Part shown: positions 1,133 through 17,058 of the stretch, in pieces
Layout of the letters: each line of letters opens with the position of its first letter
Position numbering within the stretch: position 1 is the first letter of the stretch
DNA from: Malus domestica
Lineage: Eukaryota; Streptophyta; Magnoliopsida; Rosales; Rosaceae
Direction: 5' to 3'
Assembly: GCF_042453785.1 (NCBI RefSeq)
Contig: NC_091668.1
Coordinates: forward strand, 30,629,501-30,693,500
Length of the DNA stretch: 64,000 nucleotides
Translations under genes and position numbers: made by a program
The notes under the pieces: model-generated
Told to the model about the DNA's origin: nothing
Databases searched by the model: none
What the model saw: the letters and a program-made list of their open reading frames with translations, nothing else

Positions 1133-3699
1133 ATGGAGGCCATGGTGAAGAAGTATCAGCAGAGGTTCAGGAAGGTGAGGGATGAGATGGACAGCTGGGC
1201 CGTGCTTCAGTCTCGCTTGATTTCGCAGTTCAGGAACGCCTCCTCCATCGTCCAGAGGTTGCAGGTCTCGACCCCCCCCCCTTCTCATCCAATTGCTTTT
1301 TCCATATGCCACAGTAATTCTTTATCTATTATTTAAACAAACAAACAAACCCCACTAAAAACCATTTCTTAACATGCCTTTATTAATTTACAACTTGGGT
1401 TTCATTTCTTAATTTGGCTATGCTAATTTACAAGTTGTGTCTGTTTGTGTGTGTGTTTTTTTTTCTCAGGTGCTTCAAGATTCCAAGAATTACGGCTGTT
1501 TGAAAGATGTTGTCAGCATTGAAGAGGCACTACTGGCAAAGCAAATGGACTCGTTGCAAAACATCTTGCTCTCCATGAAGAAAACCATGTAATTTTCCTC
1601 TTTTTATTTCTCTCTTTCTTTCTTGTAATTGAAATTTATTTATAGTAGCTAATTTTGTGTGAGCTACAATTGTATCCATTTTAGTCCTAAACCATGATAA
1701 TTCCAATTGAAAGCATAGCAGCCGGTGCTTATTTGCATATTAATTATTGTTAGTAGTCATTTTATAGATTAGAGTGCATCCGGCGTGTTGTGTGACCGTT
1801 GTAGGCCACTAAAGCTCAAGGGAAAATTTTATAGGACGGCAATAAGGCCGGCGATGCTGTATGGCACAGAATGTTGGGCGGTGAAGCATCAACACGTACA
1901 CAAAATGGGTTTGGACATGTGCAAAGAAGGCCTACTGACGCTTCGGTTCGAAGATGTGACTACGGGATAGAGGTTCAGGGCCGAAGGGGTAGAGGAAGAC
2001 CTAGGAAGACTTTGGAAGAGACCTTAAGAAAAGACTTAGAGTACTTGGATCTAACGGAGGACATGACACAAAACCGAGCGCAATGGCGTTCTAGGATTCA
2101 TATAGCCGACCCCACTTAGTGGGAAAAGGCTTTGTTGTTGTTGTTGTTGTTGTAGTCATTTTATAGATTAGTATTTCAATTTTTATAATGATTATTTAGC
2201 ATTTTTTAGGTGGAAAACGGGGGAAATTTTTTGAATTTCTGTTATTAATTTCAGGGAAGAGTTTCATGTTATTGTATTGTCTCTCGGGAAGATTCATCGC
2301 GATGGTGGGCAGATGGCAAAAGGCGGTGGTTCTAGTCAGTTGAGTGTAAAACAACTGCAGCAACGAGTTGGTGTAAAACCCAGTCTTGCGGATTGCTTGG
2401 ATGGGCTTATGCTTCTTCAGGACATGCATTGCTCTGAGTATGCAACTTTTATATGTCTTAAATGATAAATTGTTGTGTGTTAGCTTTGAGATATCAAATC
2501 TGGTATTGCCAGATTTCATTCCTATAAATTCGGCGACTTAGTGGTAATTAGGTGTTCTAGAAAGTTCATCTAAATTCTTGCAAAAGTATCTGGTCCTCTC
2601 CTGCACACGCACGCACACACACGCATATGCACACGCCCACTCCCACGCGCACGCACACACGCACCAATGTAACTAAACCTTTTTTTCTAGTTATATATGG
2701 GTCGACACTCGACATCACGTTAACCTAGTTTGTGAATATTTTTCTTTTTTCCCCTTCCGTTATCAGGTACCTTTTGAAGTCATCATTGGTTACAGGTACA
2801 GCACTCTCACAACTTACCTTGAAACCCAGGTGTGCGAAGTACTTATCTTCTGACCGTAACTGATATTTTACCTTCCTGATTGTTTAGGAACTTGATCCTT
2901 TCGAATGTGAAGAGAGTCTGTTCTAGTTTGGAAGGTGTTATGTAATACAACTTACTCTTATTCTTCTTTAACGTATAACATCGAGGGAGAATGAACTGTT
3001 AATACCAAAAGCCATCTATTTTGAGATTCTACTCCCTTGCTGGCACCCTTTTTTTATTTATCTACTTGTTTCTATAACTTGAATTTCTCATTTTCTGAGC
3101 TTCGACTCTATCTTTTCCGGGCAGGGGTTTTGGGTGCTGAGATTAGCAGACTGAACCATATTTCAACCTCCAGTGTGCTATAACCTTTTATTTTACGGTT
3201 ACACATCTACTATAAATTTGATACAGTTTGGAGCTTAGGTGCAATCTGCAGATGTGCCAGCCATTTCTTATCGTGGTTATATTTCCGCATATTTCTTTCT
3301 TCTTTAAGAATTAAGTTTATGTACTTGATGTTCGTTCATCAATTTCCCAGTGCCAGCAATTTGGGTGCGCTCCAGCAGCTCTTGGTTGATCAGCCTAACA
3401 TCCCCAGGGAGGAAGGTAAGATACCAATCATCTATAACCTTCGTGATCCCATCATCCATGTGATTAAAACATCCTGATTTCTATTTATCTCATTATGTTT
3501 TCTCGTCTATAATTATTTACTTTGTGTATTTGTCCTTTCCATATTGTTTATTTTTTTACGTAGTCGTCATTTCTTTCAACTTTAACTCATGACACTGAAG
3601 TACTAAAATCATGCTCTCAGAGTCTCACTGGTACCTTTTCTTTTTCTTTTTGCAGTCCAATTCATCTTCGATATCATATTTGCCGAAGACATTTGTTGA
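1133..3699 (+). CDS. Conserved plant protein, At5g43822-like (201 aa, 6 exons)
   Basis: Exons by frame and splice consensus: 1133-1264, 1470-1588, 2255-2437, 2767-2829, 3351-3415, 3656-3699; they join in phase to 202 codons including the stop. The protein begins [20 protein letters not shown] and continues with helical, charged sequence. A central [15 protein letters not shown] motif and a C-terminal [10 protein letters not shown] tail follow. I recognise it as the family annotated in Arabidopsis as uncharacterised protein At5g43822; its biochemical role is not known to me. There is no signal peptide or membrane segment, and the heptad-like N-terminus suggests a coiled coil. The ATG at 1133 is chosen because it starts the conserved MEAM sequence; the frame is open further upstream without a conserved start. 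Intron 2 holds a LINE fragment and intron 3 a CA/CG-rich microsatellite, neither touching a splice site. Confidence 0.85.
1754..2171 (+). mobile_element. 5'-truncated RTE-type LINE with 19-bp target duplication
   Basis: The body (1773-2152) encodes the C-terminal end of an RTE-type LINE protein: a [20 protein letters not shown] segment, then [10 protein letters not shown] and [16 protein letters not shown], then a (TTG)n tail at about 2132-2152. It is flanked by a perfect direct repeat, tagtcattttatagattag, at 1754-1772 and 2153-2171: the target-site duplication. Compared with the second copy at 53.1-53.5 kb it lacks about 135 bp inside, with ATGG shared at the joint. It lies in intron 2 of the At5g43822-like gene in the same orientation. 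The perfect duplication implies a fairly recent insertion. Confidence 0.9.
2602..2664. repeat. CA/CG-rich microsatellite
   Basis: Impure cacacgcacg-type tandem repeat in intron 3 of the first gene. Confidence 0.8.
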
Positions 3700-3944
3700 C
3701 ATTCGCTGGAACATTGGCTGCAAGCTTTCCGAGCTCTGGACGAGAGCAGTTTGGAAAACAGAAACCTCTTGGTTTTGTTTTAATCGTGAGTGATGACAGT
3801 TGGATGCTTGTGCTCTGGTGCTGAGATTGAGAGAGGTGCCTGCAACATTTGATGCATATAAACGCAAAAGAGAGAGAACTCATTGCAAACTAGAATGTAC
3901 CAGTATATTCATGGAAGTGATGCAGCGGAAGGTGGGGATGTGGA

Positions 3945-4035
3945 AGGGATCCTCTTGAGACCTCACTGTCCGGAGCTCAAGAACCAGACAATCCGGACCA
4001 CTCATAATGAATCTGATGGTCCACATTAACTCATT
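3945..4035. repeat. Degenerate MITE-like segment (family of the 40.1-kb MITE)
   Basis: This stretch shares the order gggatc-rich end, tccggag, tccggacca with the left end of the MITE at 40141-40306. It is diverged and lacks a clear opposite end. Confidence 0.4.
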
Positions 4036-4113
4036 TCGCTGGTCTATCTCACACAAGTCAAAAGCTACGATCTCTCTTTCACACAAACTAAGGATAAGAA
4101 TTTCCTAATCCTT

Positions 4114-4264
4114 AGGCTTCAAACAGTAAGGTTTGGAGCAGCCTCTCCATAAATGGGGGTAAGGCTAGCCGACATTCACCTCTCCCAGACCCTGCGTAAA
4201 GCGGGAGCCTTGTGCACTGGGTACGACCTTTTTTTTTTTTAGGCTTCAAACAGTAAAGTTTGGA
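4114..4264 (+). mobile_element. 5'-truncated Au-like SINE with 24-bp target duplication
   Basis: The 3' part of the same SINE found complete at 62.7 kb lies at 4138-4240: ctctccataaatgggggt, then gggagccttgtgcactgg, ending in a T run. Direct repeats starting aggcttcaaacagtaa flank it at 4114-4137 and 4241-4264 with one mismatch, so it is a genuine truncated retroposition event. It lacks the tRNA-like head with the pol III boxes. Confidence 0.85.
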
Positions 4265-5388
4265 GGGGATTCAAATTCGAGAATTAAGTGCCATTTGAGA
4301 ATTACTGTTGCAGTTTAACCTATATAAACTTTGGAGTAAAAATATAAAGATTTCACTGGGATTCTATGCCCCCCATTGACAGAAATGAAAGTATATTGAT
4401 TTTTTAAGACAAACATTCTAAACTACAACTGATTCGAACCTGAATGCAAAAGAGCGAACACATTGCTATGACAAAAAAAAACCTTGAGTCACTTCTCTTA
4501 GTTTGTAATATCTTGATTATTCAAGTCGGAATTTTCTTTTGATACAACGATATTCTACAAGGGGGGAATTCTACTGTACGAGTTAGGACTTTGAAATACG
4601 CATCTTCCACTTTGATTCCCGGAGCTCACTGACCATACTTCGATCCGACGCCAGTCACTCTTGACTCTCCTACATCGCGGCAAAACAAAACAAAATAAAT
4701 TTTAATTAAGGACATTACTTTCCCATTAACAAAAGAATATTTAAGCACATTGCTAAGTTTTCTCTTTCCATTACAAGACTTAAAACATCTACAAAATCTA
4801 AACTACATATTAATAAAAAAAATTTTGTCAACAAAAAGAAAGGAAAAAAACCAAAAATTAACATGTCAACGAAACTTAAAAAAAAAAAAAACCAAAATAG
4901 AAGTTAGGGGCAATATAGTAAATTAAACAATTTAAAAAAAAAAATTTCAAAGCTCACAGCTAGGTAACCATATCAATTGCCACAATTTTCTCTTTCACGT
5001 TTTTTATCCAAATAAAATAAACTTTTAGTAACGAAATAATTGTCAAAAAGCAGTCACTAAAGATGTGAGAAACCTCTTCAGCAACGAAAAATCGTTTGAA
5101 GGTTGCCACAAAAAAGCTTTAGCTTTTAAATTTCATCTTTTTAGTATCATCTAATCATGTTGTGCACTCTTATTTGTTTATTTAAAATTTAAATTTATTC
5201 TCACTTTTACACATCAACCATACTTTATGGCTTCGTCACCCTTCGAGTGTCGGCGAGCACATCGTGTTCCGAACAGACACATGAACATTCCAGGTTAGAA
5301 AGTGTCAATTCAGTAAACATAATTTTTAATATTTTAAAAGTACATGCATAACATATGCATGTCTACAATTACTAGTATAGCACTAAAG
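4265..5388. other. Intergenic AT-rich spacer
   Basis: No gene is supported. The part at about 4890-5060 is related to 23790-23960 (see repeats); the rest is A/T-rich with no coding signal. Confidence 0.6.
4885..5065. repeat. Dispersed unnamed repeat, copy 1
   Basis: It shares caatatagtaaattaaac, aaagctcacagc and aataaaataaactt in the same order and spacing with 23790-23925, so the two are copies of one diverged element of unknown class. Confidence 0.55.
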
Positions 5389-5389
5389 A

Positions 5390-6726
5390 TGTATTCATGA
5401 ATTTACCCCTTGAACTTGTAAGGATTGACCAATTTATCCTCTCAACTTTAATTTTGGCCAATTTCCTTCCTCAACTCTTATAATTAGTCAATTTGCACTA
5501 TACTGTTAATTTTTTTTAATTTTCCATCTATTCTTCTGTTAAGTAGGTCACGTGCTATCCACATGACTACCTTTAAAGGGCAAAAAAGTCATTTCCCTAC
5601 ACCTTCCATCTACTTCCTTTTGACCCACACTTTGTACTCCCCGGATTCTTCTCTGTTAGAGAAGCATCTCAGTTCTTTAACTCCCAAGACTGCCCTTCAA
5701 TCACCACACTCCCCGATGATGGCGTGGACTCCGACGAATCAGACGACAGCCACATGATTGAGGAGTGGATGGTACTCTCTCTCTCGCTCTCTTATTTTTT
5801 CAATTTCTTCAAATTGTTACTGAAATTAGTTACCGAACCAGGTCCGTGAAGCAAGGCCTTGAAGATTTTCACTCCGGAAAGGATTCTGGGTCGGATCTCA
5901 CCAAGCTTCTATCCGATTGCATCGCCGAGGACAATACTCAGTACAGGGACGACATCAGATTTCTCAAGATTTGGTTCCTCCATGTATGTATTAATACACT
6001 CCCTTTCTAATTTCTGACATTTTTTTCATACATTTTGCTTGTGTATTTTTTATGGGTCAATTTATTTTTATTACTTTCAATTTTGGTTTTTGTTTAGTTA
6101 CTTTGATTATGTTAATAAATATCAAATTTGGTACATTTTTTGGGTTAAAATTTTGAGGGGGTTGTTTGTCAATGTGATTGATATGAAACATTAATTACTT
6201 GTCTTTGTGGATTTGCAGATGGATACCAGTGAAGATTTCGAAAGCGTTTTTCTGGAAATGTTGCACAGGGAGATTTGTGTTGGCCACTCTTTGCTTTATG
6301 TCTGGTACGCGACCTTTCTCGAAGCCAAAGAGAAATTGGACCTCGACCAGTAGCGACGCAGCTACTACACCCCAGAAGTAAACGAGCTCAGATCTCTCCC
6401 GCTGTTTCTTTTGGTGTTCGCCGGAAAATCGTGCCGGTGGAGCACCTGTGGAACCTGCACCGGCTCGGCTTGGAGAAAAGCTCGGCTTGAAGAAAAGGAG
6501 GAAGAAGAGAAAGTTCAAAGAAAAGGAAGAAGACAGGGAAAATGACTTTTTTGGCTTTAAAGGCAGTCATGCGAATAACAGAAAAATAGATGAAAAATTA
6601 AAAAATTTAACAGTAGGATGTAAATTGATTAATTATGAGAATTGAAGGGAGAAATTGGCTAAAATTAAATTGATCGGGGGAAATTAACCAATTTTTACAA
6701 GTTCAAAGGGTAAATTATTGAATACC
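5390..6726 (+). mobile_element. Pack-MULE-like DNA transposon with long inverted ends
   Basis: The left end (about 5390-5627) and right end (about 6511-6726) are inverted copies of each other over roughly 230 bp: ttgaacttgtaaggattg on the left is matched by the complement of atttttacaagttcaa on the right. The similarity runs on through the ctttaaag...aaaaaagtcat blocks. The interior encodes no transposase but carries a piece of a host gene with an intron (see 5842-6353). Long inverted ends around captured genic DNA are the hallmark of Mutator-like Pack-MULEs. Flanks resemble each other over cactaaa...attca, but a clean 9-bp target duplication was not established, so the superfamily is inferred. 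Confidence 0.7.
5842..6353 (+). pseudogene. Captured fragment of a BUB1/Mad3-type spindle-checkpoint gene
   Basis: Two exons, 5842-5983 and 6219-6353, flank an intact GT-AG intron. Joined in frame they read KQGLEDFHSGKDSGSDLTKL, then YRDDIRFLKIWFLHMDTSED, then EICVGHSLLYVWYATFLEAK, ending at a TAG after LDLDQ. This matches the N-terminal TPR-like Mad3/BUB1 region I of plant BUB1/BUBR1-family proteins (YRND..RFLKIWF and HSLLY.WYA.FLEAK are typical). Only about 90 residues of a protein usually several hundred long are present, with no kinase domain. It lies between the inverted ends of a Pack-MULE-like element. The upstream block 5655-5768 is also open (LPDDGVDSDESDDSHMIEEW) and may come from another source; I do not recognise it. 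Confidence 0.7.
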
Positions 6727-6970
6727 GAAATACTAATAAGAACACTAAAATGTTATTCACTCAAACAGAAGTAAACATTCTTCAACTGAAGATAATATAA
6801 AATAGAAAGAAAACCCGACACACGGAGACACGTGTCACCAACCAACTTGACAGAAGAGAAAAATGTAAATTGAAAATTAGATAGTGTATGGATAAAAGAA
6901 GTATAAGGACATGCATACCGGTCAAAGGGTCAGCCTTCTATATGATCAAAACATTCAGTATTATTCACCA

Positions 6971-6999
6971 ACTCTCTCTCTCTCTCTCTCTCTCTCTCC
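6971..6999. repeat. (TC)n microsatellite
   Basis: Uninterrupted dinucleotide run in the 5' leader of the glucosylceramidase gene. Confidence 0.9.
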
Positions 7000-7067
7000 T
7001 GTAATCTGCGGGAGTTTGCTGTCTCTGTGAACCCAGTTGGTTGGAGTTGCAGTCTGATAACTGTCAG
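7000..7067 (+). other. Probable 5'-UTR exon of the glucosylceramidase gene
   Basis: Leader-like sequence ends in a strong donor, ctgtcag followed by gtatgaatt at 7068. The matching acceptor ttaatacag at 8337 lies five bases before the ATG at 8343, giving a leader intron of about 1.27 kb (7068-8337). The transcription start is not fixed. Confidence 0.55.
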
Positions 7068-7194
7068 GTATGAATTATTTACACCAGTTGATATTTTTGT
7101 TGGGTGAGTGAGATCAGATGAATATGCAGTGAAATCATCAAAATTTCTCTTCTTGTCGTGACATAAGTTCTAATACATATTGTGACTGCGTAAA

Positions 7195-7375
7195 TGTAGA
7201 GATAGATTAGGAATCTTTTGAGATCTAGAAGATTTTTTCTAATAGATTTTGTATTACTTGGAGAACAAGTTTCTCTCATCTTTATTACTATAAATAAAGG
7301 CACGAGTAATTCCTCAAGCCTATTCTCCACCCTCTTCCTCTTCATGCCGCACCATCTCAGTTAAATATAGGTCAC
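7195..7375. repeat. LTR-like fragment, copy 1 (related to 44.97 kb)
   Basis: It shares attaggaatctt, agaagat, ttgtatta.ttggagaacaag and aaataaaggcac with 44965-45130, including a TATA-like tataaataaa. The layout resembles the promoter part of an LTR retroelement. Element ends were not found; it is a short relic within the leader intron. Confidence 0.45.
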
Positions 7376-8342
7376 AACATTTCTTTATTTTTTTATTTTT
7401 TATTTTTGTTTGTTTCGCGAATTGGGTTTTGTTTCACTTGTGTGTTGTTGTTTTGTTTTAAAATTTAAGGTTGTCTGAATTGTAAATGTCAATAATCCTG
7501 CGGAATCAGAAAGCAATATGTTGGAAAAATATGGACTGACGTGCGACGCAGCTATACCGAAAATATTTCATAAAATAAGAATACGAAACGGGGATTAAAA
7601 TATGACTAGTTATAATTAATATTACATATATTAAAAACAATACTTTAAATTTATAATATGACAAAATGCTCGTGTTCATCGAATTCATTCACTAAACATA
7701 ATAGTTAAACACAAGATTCAAGTCTCAATGGTCTCAAGTCTCTGTTTCTATTTTCTCCTCAACTTCATTGTCGTCGTTAGGAAAGATCACGACCTCTAAT
7801 TGGAGAGAAAGAGGACTAAAGAGTAGGTCAGAAAACTTCAGGTTTTAGAAGTTTCAATATTTACGAAATTGCCTCAAAATTTCTTTTACATATACAAAAA
7901 GCCCTTGTCGTGTCTTGACCGTGTCTGAAGTCTAAACCGTATTTGGGGCGTGTTTGAGGCGTGTCAGGGTATCTGCCACTCTGACATTTCGGGGTTTCGG
8001 AGTGTCCGTGCAACATAAGCATTGCAAAGTGATTAATGTGAGTCCTACAGTGATTCAAAGCATGACTATCTGGGTTACCACTATAATTTTGATAATCTTG
8101 CAGAGAATTCTCTCAAATCATATGCAGTAGTTTTGTTTATTTGGTAGATGAGAGGATGGAAAAGGGCATTCTCTTTAGTTACCAACTTATCGGAGTAAAA
8201 TGGTAGCTGTAATTTCAATACTTGGGTTGATGTTCTTAACTCCCAGTAAACTGATGGAAAATGATAAGAGGAAGAACATTATTAATTAACATTGTAACTG
8301 CGTTCTGCGCGATTAAGTAATGTTTTGTTTAATACAGGAAGT

Positions 8343-15144
<6,802 letters not shown>

Positions 15145-15888: not shown

Positions 15889-16005
15889 CATCGGTCTTCG
15901 ATATCATACAATTCATGGTGTTTTTCTCTGCATGCTTTTAGAGGCACCAGAAGCATCATGTTTTGAGTTGGGTATTCTTGCCCGATTCAAAATATCAAAG
16001 AAGAA

Positions 16006-17058
16006 ATGGCTGCGAATCCTGATCAGTGCACATCTCCTCTGCCGGGTGAGTGGATGAAGGGAAAAATGGTCGGTTCTGGTTCTTATGGGAGTGTTCATCT
16101 GGCCATGAACAAAGCCACAGGAGCGCTTTTCGTTGTGAAATCTGCTCAGTCTAGGGATGGAGCTGAGGCTCTTGAGAACGAGGTTAAGATTCTCGAGAGT
16201 ACGAATTCCCCACATGTTGTTAAATGTATGGGGAGGGAAAATGGTGAAGGGAAATGCACTAATGTGTTCATGGAGTACATGGCAGGGGGTAGTTTGTCAG
16301 ATGTGATGCAGATATTTGGCGGGGCGTTGGAGGAAGAAGTGGTTCGGTTGTACACAAGGGAGATTCTTCACGGCCTCAAGTATCTTCATGAAAGTGGGAT
16401 TGTGCATTGTGACCTCAAGTGCAGCAATGTGCTCTTGGGATCCTCCGGGAATGTCAAGTTGGCGGATTTTGGCTTCGCAAGGAGGCTAAAGGCCTCAAAG
16501 GCTGACGGGGTTTCAGTGCAGCACTCTTTGCAATGTATTGGCGGGACTCCATTGTGGATGGCTCCTGAAGTTTTGAGAAACGAAGGGCTAGATTTTGCCT
16601 CGGATATCTGGTCATTGGGATGCACGGTGATTGAAATGGTTACCGGGAGGCCTCCTTGGGGCAATGAGATTTGGAATCCGGTTGCTGCTGTTTTGAAGAT
16701 TGCTTGTGGCAATGAGAAGCCTCAGTTCCCGCAAAAGCTTTCGGATGAAGGGTTGGATTTCTTAGCAAGGTGCTTGGAGAGAGACCCCAAAAGGAGGTGG
16801 TCTGCTAAGGAGTTGCTCAACCATCCATTTGTGTCTGGAAACTCAATGCAATTTTCAAGAAATGGTGCGGTCTACTCACCAGCGAGCACATTAGACATTG
16901 GACTTTACGAAGAGGGTTCTGATTGTTCAGATCAGGGATTTGAGAGCTGCGATCGTGATGAGTTCCCCAGCAGCCCAAGTAGAAACCCTTTTTCAAGAAG
17001 GCAGCAGATATCTGAGAATCACTTGGAGTCGTCAGGAAATTGGATTACTGTTAGGTAA
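16006..17058 (+). CDS. MAPKKK (MEKK-like) serine/threonine kinase, intronless, 350 aa
   Basis: This is a single-exon kinase. The glycine-rich loop GSGSYGSV is at residues 23-30, the ATP-binding Lys45 lies in VVKS, the catalytic loop HCDLKCSN starts at His134 (Asp136), DFG is at 154-156, and GTPLWMAPE ends at Glu188. The kinase domain fills residues 17-275 and is followed by a Ser/acid-rich tail of about 75 residues (PSSPSRNPFSRR). The HCD in place of HRD and the small intronless form with an N-terminal kinase domain are typical of the plant MAPKKK13-21 group, which feeds MAPKK-MAPK cascades, several members being ABA- or stress-induced. The exact paralogue is not resolved. The ATG is preceded in frame by stops and sits 125 bases after a TATA box. 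All catalytic residues are present. Confidence 0.9.
   Translation: MAANPDQCTSPLPGEWMKGKMVGSGSYGSVHLAMNKATGALFVVKSAQSRDGAEALENEVKILESTNSPHVVKCMGRENGEGKCTNVFMEYMAGGSLSDVMQIFGGALEEEVVRLYTREILHGLKYLHESGIVHCDLKCSNVLLGSSGNVKLADFGFARRLKASKADGVSVQHSLQCIGGTPLWMAPEVLRNEGLDFASDIWSLGCTVIEMVTGRPPWGNEIWNPVAAVLKIACGNEKPQFPQKLSDEGLDFLARCLERDPKRRWSAKELLNHPFVSGNSMQFSRNGAVYSPASTLDIGLYEEGSDCSDQGFESCDRDEFPSSPSRNPFSRRQQISENHLESSGNWITVR

Follow-up and report, generated by a model that had tools for sequence, protein, structure and literature searches.

A Pack-MULE-like element of Malus domestica with GATL and BUB1 gene fragments, and related cargo inside hAT-type elements

Introduction

Pack-MULEs, which Jiang et al. 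reportedly described in 2004 and which are said to occur in rice and other plants, are the reference for the class of element considered here. Like them, an element that we analyzed in the apple genome is non-autonomous, bears long terminal inverted repeats (TIRs) of a family with 9-bp target duplications, and holds intron-bearing fragments from more than one host gene. It differs from them in that this particular copy has an eroded duplication and in that hAT-type elements hold part of the same cargo.

Two further systems are close. hAT Pack-TYPE elements are treated by Gisby and Catoni (2022; PMC8903248), and two apple copies, on C6 and at L013, resemble these in their hAT-like ends, exact 8-bp duplications, and HHO host sequence; unlike them, the hAT element here holds a nested Pack-MULE remnant, so that some of the gene pieces in its cargo were not captured by the hAT element itself. 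PMC8277862 sets out the gap-filling and FoSTeST models. As in the Pack-TIRs formed in that way, filler from another chromosome is joined at microhomology in the apple element, whereas, in contrast to those animal Pack-TIRs, the filler here would have entered an element that already bore a gene fragment. A limited literature search (Pack-MULE, apple, Pack-TYPE/hAT capture, nesting, and small RNA) yielded no mention of this element in the accessible portions of the texts and no paper on a Pack-MULE with BUB1; in the main text of PMC11197308, on Rosaceae, the one mention of Pack-MULEs found stands within the reference list.

The element lies at positions 5388 to 6728 of the window, as we call the whole 64,000-nucleotide stretch that was analyzed (C8:30629501-30693500), and the genome searched comprises 651 Mb in 19 contigs. 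We are confident that it is a Pack-MULE-type member of the Mutator group, non-autonomous and built stepwise. It offers a clean case of stepwise gene-fragment capture: the sisters free of BUB1, both parents, the joins, and the homeologous site without the insertion all occur in one genome, and the order of events can therefore be read. The notable part of the finding is a relay of the cargo across transposon superfamilies.

Results and Discussion

The left TIR spans 5388-5598 on the forward strand and the right TIR 6535-6728 on the reverse strand, the latter placed by arm pairing and family ends. Ungapped, the arms pair over 134 nt at 77% identity (5391-5524 with 6592-6725) and over 46 nt at 74% (5553-5598 with 6535-6580); aligned with gaps, they are identical in 174 of 212 columns (82%). 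An initial annotation, made from the letters of the window alone, had described inverted ends bracketing a gene piece, and both pairings bear this out. Its borders, 5390 and 6726, located the element, but each end lies about two bases further out, at 5388 and 6728, because family ends read GAG before GTATTC (the left end of this copy has GAT before GTATTC, where the family usually starts with GAG followed by GTATTCATCAATTTACCC). The TIR, about 200 bp long, belongs to a dispersed family whose ends are common to many other elements. A 21-base family end has 199 genome sites with at most two mismatches, against 0 for a reversed control pattern, and searching the genome's DNA with the complete element yielded at least 135 matches, a lower bound from the 40 of 288 candidates that were scored.

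Between the TIRs, positions 5770-6338 (forward strand) are a capture from the BUB1 kinase gene of C17, comprising intron 1 (5772-5841), exon 2 (5842-5983), intron 2 (5984-6218), and part of exon 3 (6219-6338). Identity with the C17 gene is 93% over 583 columns, both introns included; taken with the 199 end sites against none for the control, this is more than chance would give. The peptide of the two exons matches Pfam Mad3_BUB1_I (PF08311) with an E value of 8.4e-15 (55.2 bits, cut-off 31.4), and so the BUB1/Mad3 fragment proposed in the initial annotation stands on both the domain match and the C17 alignment. Of the GT-AG introns, that annotation had recognized the one at 5984-6218, which is indeed intron 2 of the C17 gene, and had missed intron 1; two introns are kept, not one. 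Their retention implies that capture took place at the DNA level, as had been suggested. The parent, read by eye, is apparently complete, with its ATG at about C17:28869776, its stop at about 28874045, and the downstream exons in place; it reads MDSDTTPLHDPLLPWLW (by eye), and one 53-aa exon matches Pfam Pkinase (E 1e-5, under the curated cut-off).

The remaining cargo, 5656-5772 and 6339-6469, derives from an intronless 358-codon gene on C15 (2067684-2068760; Pfam Glyco_transf_8, E 3.3e-47), which we take to be a galacturonosyltransferase-like (GATL) gene, as we do its fragments. Fragment 1 (5656-5759, forward strand) is 92% identical to this GT8 gene and is matched at 88% by a paralogue on C8, probably homeologous to the C15 gene. 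Fragment 1b (5760-5772, forward strand, GAGGAGTGGATGG) comes, by eye, from a point in the GATL gene about 570 bp downstream and is joined to fragment 1 through a shared ATT (also by eye), a join that the C6 copy repeats. Fragment 2 (6339-6469, forward strand, aligned at 6339-6371 and 6382-6469 with small deletions) starts about 40 to 55 bp upstream of the end of fragment 1b in the GATL gene. The second open block noted initially at 5655-5768, with the suggestion that it might be a second captured source, is thus rightly seen as such. Its bare 38-aa translation gave no match in a Pfam search. Given the HHO sequence close by on C6, we had first read 5656-5759 as an HHO/NIGT1 exon; that reading was rejected, as the match to the C15 gene shows GATL.

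The captured BUB1 stretch, about 570 bp of C17 genomic sequence from the start of intron 1 to the middle of exon 3, sits between two GATL pieces. At the left join, which reads GGATGG followed by TACTCTC, the three bases TGG are common to GATL and BUB1; at the right join, BUB1 sequence runs to about 6338, GATL returns from 6339 on, and at most one base is shared. Three sisters with the same TIR (C11 at 3.9 Mb, C3, and C15 at 40.7 Mb) carry fragment 1 of GATL and are free of BUB1, and GATL sequence also occurs at one place on C10. Because such BUB1-free GATL sisters exist, GATL was probably captured before BUB1; loss of BUB1 from the sisters could in principle reverse this order. A break or a stalled fork in a GATL element may have been repaired with BUB1 copied in, and template switching at short homologies could have been the route of entry. 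The chimera would then have been brought to the window by a MULE transposase acting in trans.

This GATL-BUB1 join is found again on C6 (L010, 3801-5132), at 89% identity to the window over 615 columns. This copy lacks the left MULE end and retains a shortened stub of the right one, with the 21-base family end present without mismatch at C6:17313705. It is embedded in sequence that we presume to be HHO/NIGT1-like, for which a gene at C16:3.20 Mb, with a Myb domain by Pfam, is the likely parent. The whole lies in a hAT-type element flanked on both sides by an exact 8-bp duplication (CCACCACC), beside CAGGG and CCCTG ends. Outside the window and the gene itself, the BUB1 piece is found in at least seven places, namely C6, C11 (L013), C9 (L014), C5 (L015), C2 (two), and C15 (L018); one of the C2 places is L016, and the other, at 2.91 Mb, is known only by hit coordinates, which span the same stretch. 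Further copies share the HHO flank, and L013 to L016 and L018 retain a 42-bp MULE end stub, which, as on C6, sits where BUB1 meets HHO. In L018, a BUB1-piece copy, two MULE end sequences lie 93 bp apart (C15:3071868 and 3071961).

The C11 copy (L013, 2774-4486; C11:8671773-8673485) is a complete hAT element with an exact 8-bp duplication (CCATTAAC), a piece of BUB1 intron 2 and exon 3, and the 42-bp MULE end, so that two hAT copies carrying the BUB1 piece, this one and C6, have exact duplications. To judge from the pattern of hits, C5, C1 (two), C4, and C14 carry HHO elements that lack both GATL and BUB1. Two of them were aligned, and both are of hAT type with exact 8-bp duplications: L063 (C5:35.63 Mb, ATGTGAGG) and L065 (C1:28.76 Mb, GTTGAGGT). 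In a scan for hAT ends, 7 of 10 loci have a recognizable right end, and for four of these seven (C6, L013, L063, and L065) there is an exact upstream 8-mer beside CAGG; for the other three (L015, L016, and L052), no matching left end was found.

At least eight BUB1 fragments lie scattered through this one genome, in two unrelated vehicles. That captured host exons were relayed between DNA-transposon superfamilies, as a two-gene Pack-MULE cassette nested in a gene-carrying hAT element that then dispersed it, is well supported. A sister copy of the chimera would have jumped into an HHO-carrying hAT element, the nested chimera on C6 would have lost its left MULE end, and hAT transposase may then have moved and multiplied it. 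The opposite direction, in which the chimera was first assembled in a hAT element and then picked up by a MULE, could draw on the larger number of BUB1-piece places on the hAT/HHO side than in MULEs, but it is improbable: a MULE end stub directly follows BUB1 in C6 and five other copies, the HHO backbone occurs without GATL and BUB1, and GATL is present in three other TIR-bearing MULEs. Together these three observations point to a direction from MULE to hAT. One captured exon set occurs in two superfamilies through nesting, and this makes counts of "capture" per superfamily ambiguous, for the hAT copies may hold their BUB1 piece without a capture of their own. The lesson for annotators is that neither PF08311-positive stretch, at C6:17.31 Mb or in the window, is a gene; both are transposon cargo.

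The assignment of the ends to MULEs rests on the family. We compared the nine bases directly outside the terminal three (usually GAG) in 17 complete end pairs, a set from which L012, L021, L023, L024, L028, and the B-type L013 to L016 and L018 were left out, having no clear outer-end pair. Eight of the 17 pairs are perfect and 12 match in at least 8 of 9 positions, while three reach only 4 to 5 of 9; none of the mismatched control pairs reaches 8 of 9. At a length of nine, the matched share is 0.856, whereas 1,000 shuffles average 0.411 and reach 0.575 at most; at no other length between 3 and 14 does the share exceed the shuffle maximum. The target duplication of the TIR family is therefore 9 bp long. 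Long TIRs fit MULEs, and hAT target duplications measure 8 bp, as in the C6 type; the 9-bp duplications and long TIRs point to the MULE superfamily. The inverted ends recur in other MULEs of this 9-bp family, and with these shared TIRs, the family duplications, and the captured host genes, the Pack-MULE reading first proposed for the locus is supported. MULE target duplications are given as 8 to 11 bp in PMC3903597.

It is very unlikely that the ends belong to a different TIR superfamily, given the family-wide 9-bp duplications, where a hAT element would give 8 bp, and the long TIRs; the point in favor of such an assignment is that no MULE transposase was tied to the ends among the TIR and MULE-domain places compared. 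The element has 18 stop-to-stop frames of at least 40 aa, none of them long, and a Pfam scan of 10 of the 18 for a transposase of its own returned only Mad3_BUB1_I, below threshold, in one exon. The search for an autonomous partner set 108 TIR places against 150 places with MULE domains (100 of 199 end sites and 150 of 482 domain candidates covered), and the nearest pair is 62 kb apart. In L023 (C16:1.78 Mb), two copies of this family's TIR enclose a stretch of 2.8 kb (2697-5486), and a Pfam scan that covered 10 of the 20 frames listed for it found no transposase. That stretch contains a C-terminal aconitase fragment (Pfam Aconitase_C, E 3.9e-9) and is probably another gene-carrying member of the family.

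In the window copy itself, the possible left and right copies of the duplication (5379-5387, AGCACTAAA, and 6729-6737, AATACTAAT; unstranded) agree in 6 of 9 positions. With three mismatches the duplication is worn, and because 8% of mismatched control pairs also reach 6 of 9, its support at this site is only suggestive. It falls below the standard of a study of coding MULEs, in which at most two mismatches were allowed (PMC3903597).

We also considered whether the element may function as a chimeric gene or give rise to small RNAs acting on BUB1, which appears very improbable. Introns 1 and 2 keep their GT-AG ends, the element and the BUB1 locus have 11 exact matches of at least 21 nt in common, the longest being 122 nt (6191-6312, the end of intron 2 and most of captured exon 3), the BUB1 piece has at least seven other dispersed copies, and the genic MULEs of rice have 24-nt small RNAs mapping to them, according to PMC4858842. 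Against a functional gene, in the predicted message spliced at 5771/5842 and 5983/6219 a stop interrupts the BUB1 frame a few codons ahead of exon 2, and of the chimera's ATG-started frames the longest (MDTSEDF...) has 44 codons. For these two reasons, a new chimeric protein is unlikely. Nor do the exon sites change more slowly than the intron sites: about 10 of 265 exon sites and about 11 of 302 intron sites differ from the parent, and because these counts are similar, the captured BUB1 exons show no constraint. The corrected distance K between the window piece and its C17 parent is 0.038 (571 sites), which at usual plant rates would presumably correspond to a few million years; we assign no date. 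Through these exact matches, any small RNAs that the element may yield could in principle base-pair with transcripts of BUB1. The boldest form of this idea, that the relayed BUB1 copies, identical to the gene over as many as 122 nt, might feed small RNAs that touch the checkpoint gene, has in our view a very small chance of being right.

Downstream of the element, at 6907-15144, lies a gene with a GH116 catalytic region (Pfam, E 2.8e-106), which we take to be GBA2-like. The homeologous region of C15 aligns with the window at 4700-4754 and again from 6907 on, and between these anchors the window has 2,153 bp versus 393 bp on C15. Once the element is removed in silico, the flanks align across the site; the empty C15 site aligns loosely near a CACTAAA motif, and because the C15 alignment is patchy, the insertion site is placed only roughly. 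By this alignment, the homeologous C15 promoter is shown to be without the element. About 0.2 kb separate the element from the stretch downstream that is conserved with the 5' end of the GH116 homeologue. The element is most likely an inert passenger, and any effect that it has would be a local one on the GH116 promoter. The C15 region also holds a second, tandem copy of the 5' part of the gene (L058 and L060).

The empty site bears, too, on whether the BUB1 piece belongs to a local gene. It is not the 5' end of one, a doubt that the initial annotation had raised, for GATL and then the right TIR follow 6338, and the downstream exons are on C17. That it might be a decayed or truncated local BUB1 paralogue with accidental inverted repeats would suit the preserved introns and order, as in a segmental duplicate, but is almost certainly wrong, since no further BUB1 match is found after 6341 inside the element, GATL lies on both sides of BUB1 within the TIRs, the identical GATL-BUB1 join is present on C6, and the element is absent from the homeologous site. 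Among the element's DNA matches (40 of 288 candidates scored), none falls at the other PF08311 loci (C6 at 0.29 Mb, C1, and C7).

The surroundings hold other features. In the 5' part of the GH116 gene, 7153-7379 and 7573-8017 are two dispersed repeats, each with at least several to a few dozen genome matches (40 of 810 candidates scored). Upstream of the element, 4132-4240 resembles what we take to be a tRNA-derived SINE, with GGGTACGACC and a T run as its ends. Beyond the GH116 gene, a 363-codon open frame at 15967-17058 reads by eye as an intronless protein kinase of MAPKKK-like type.
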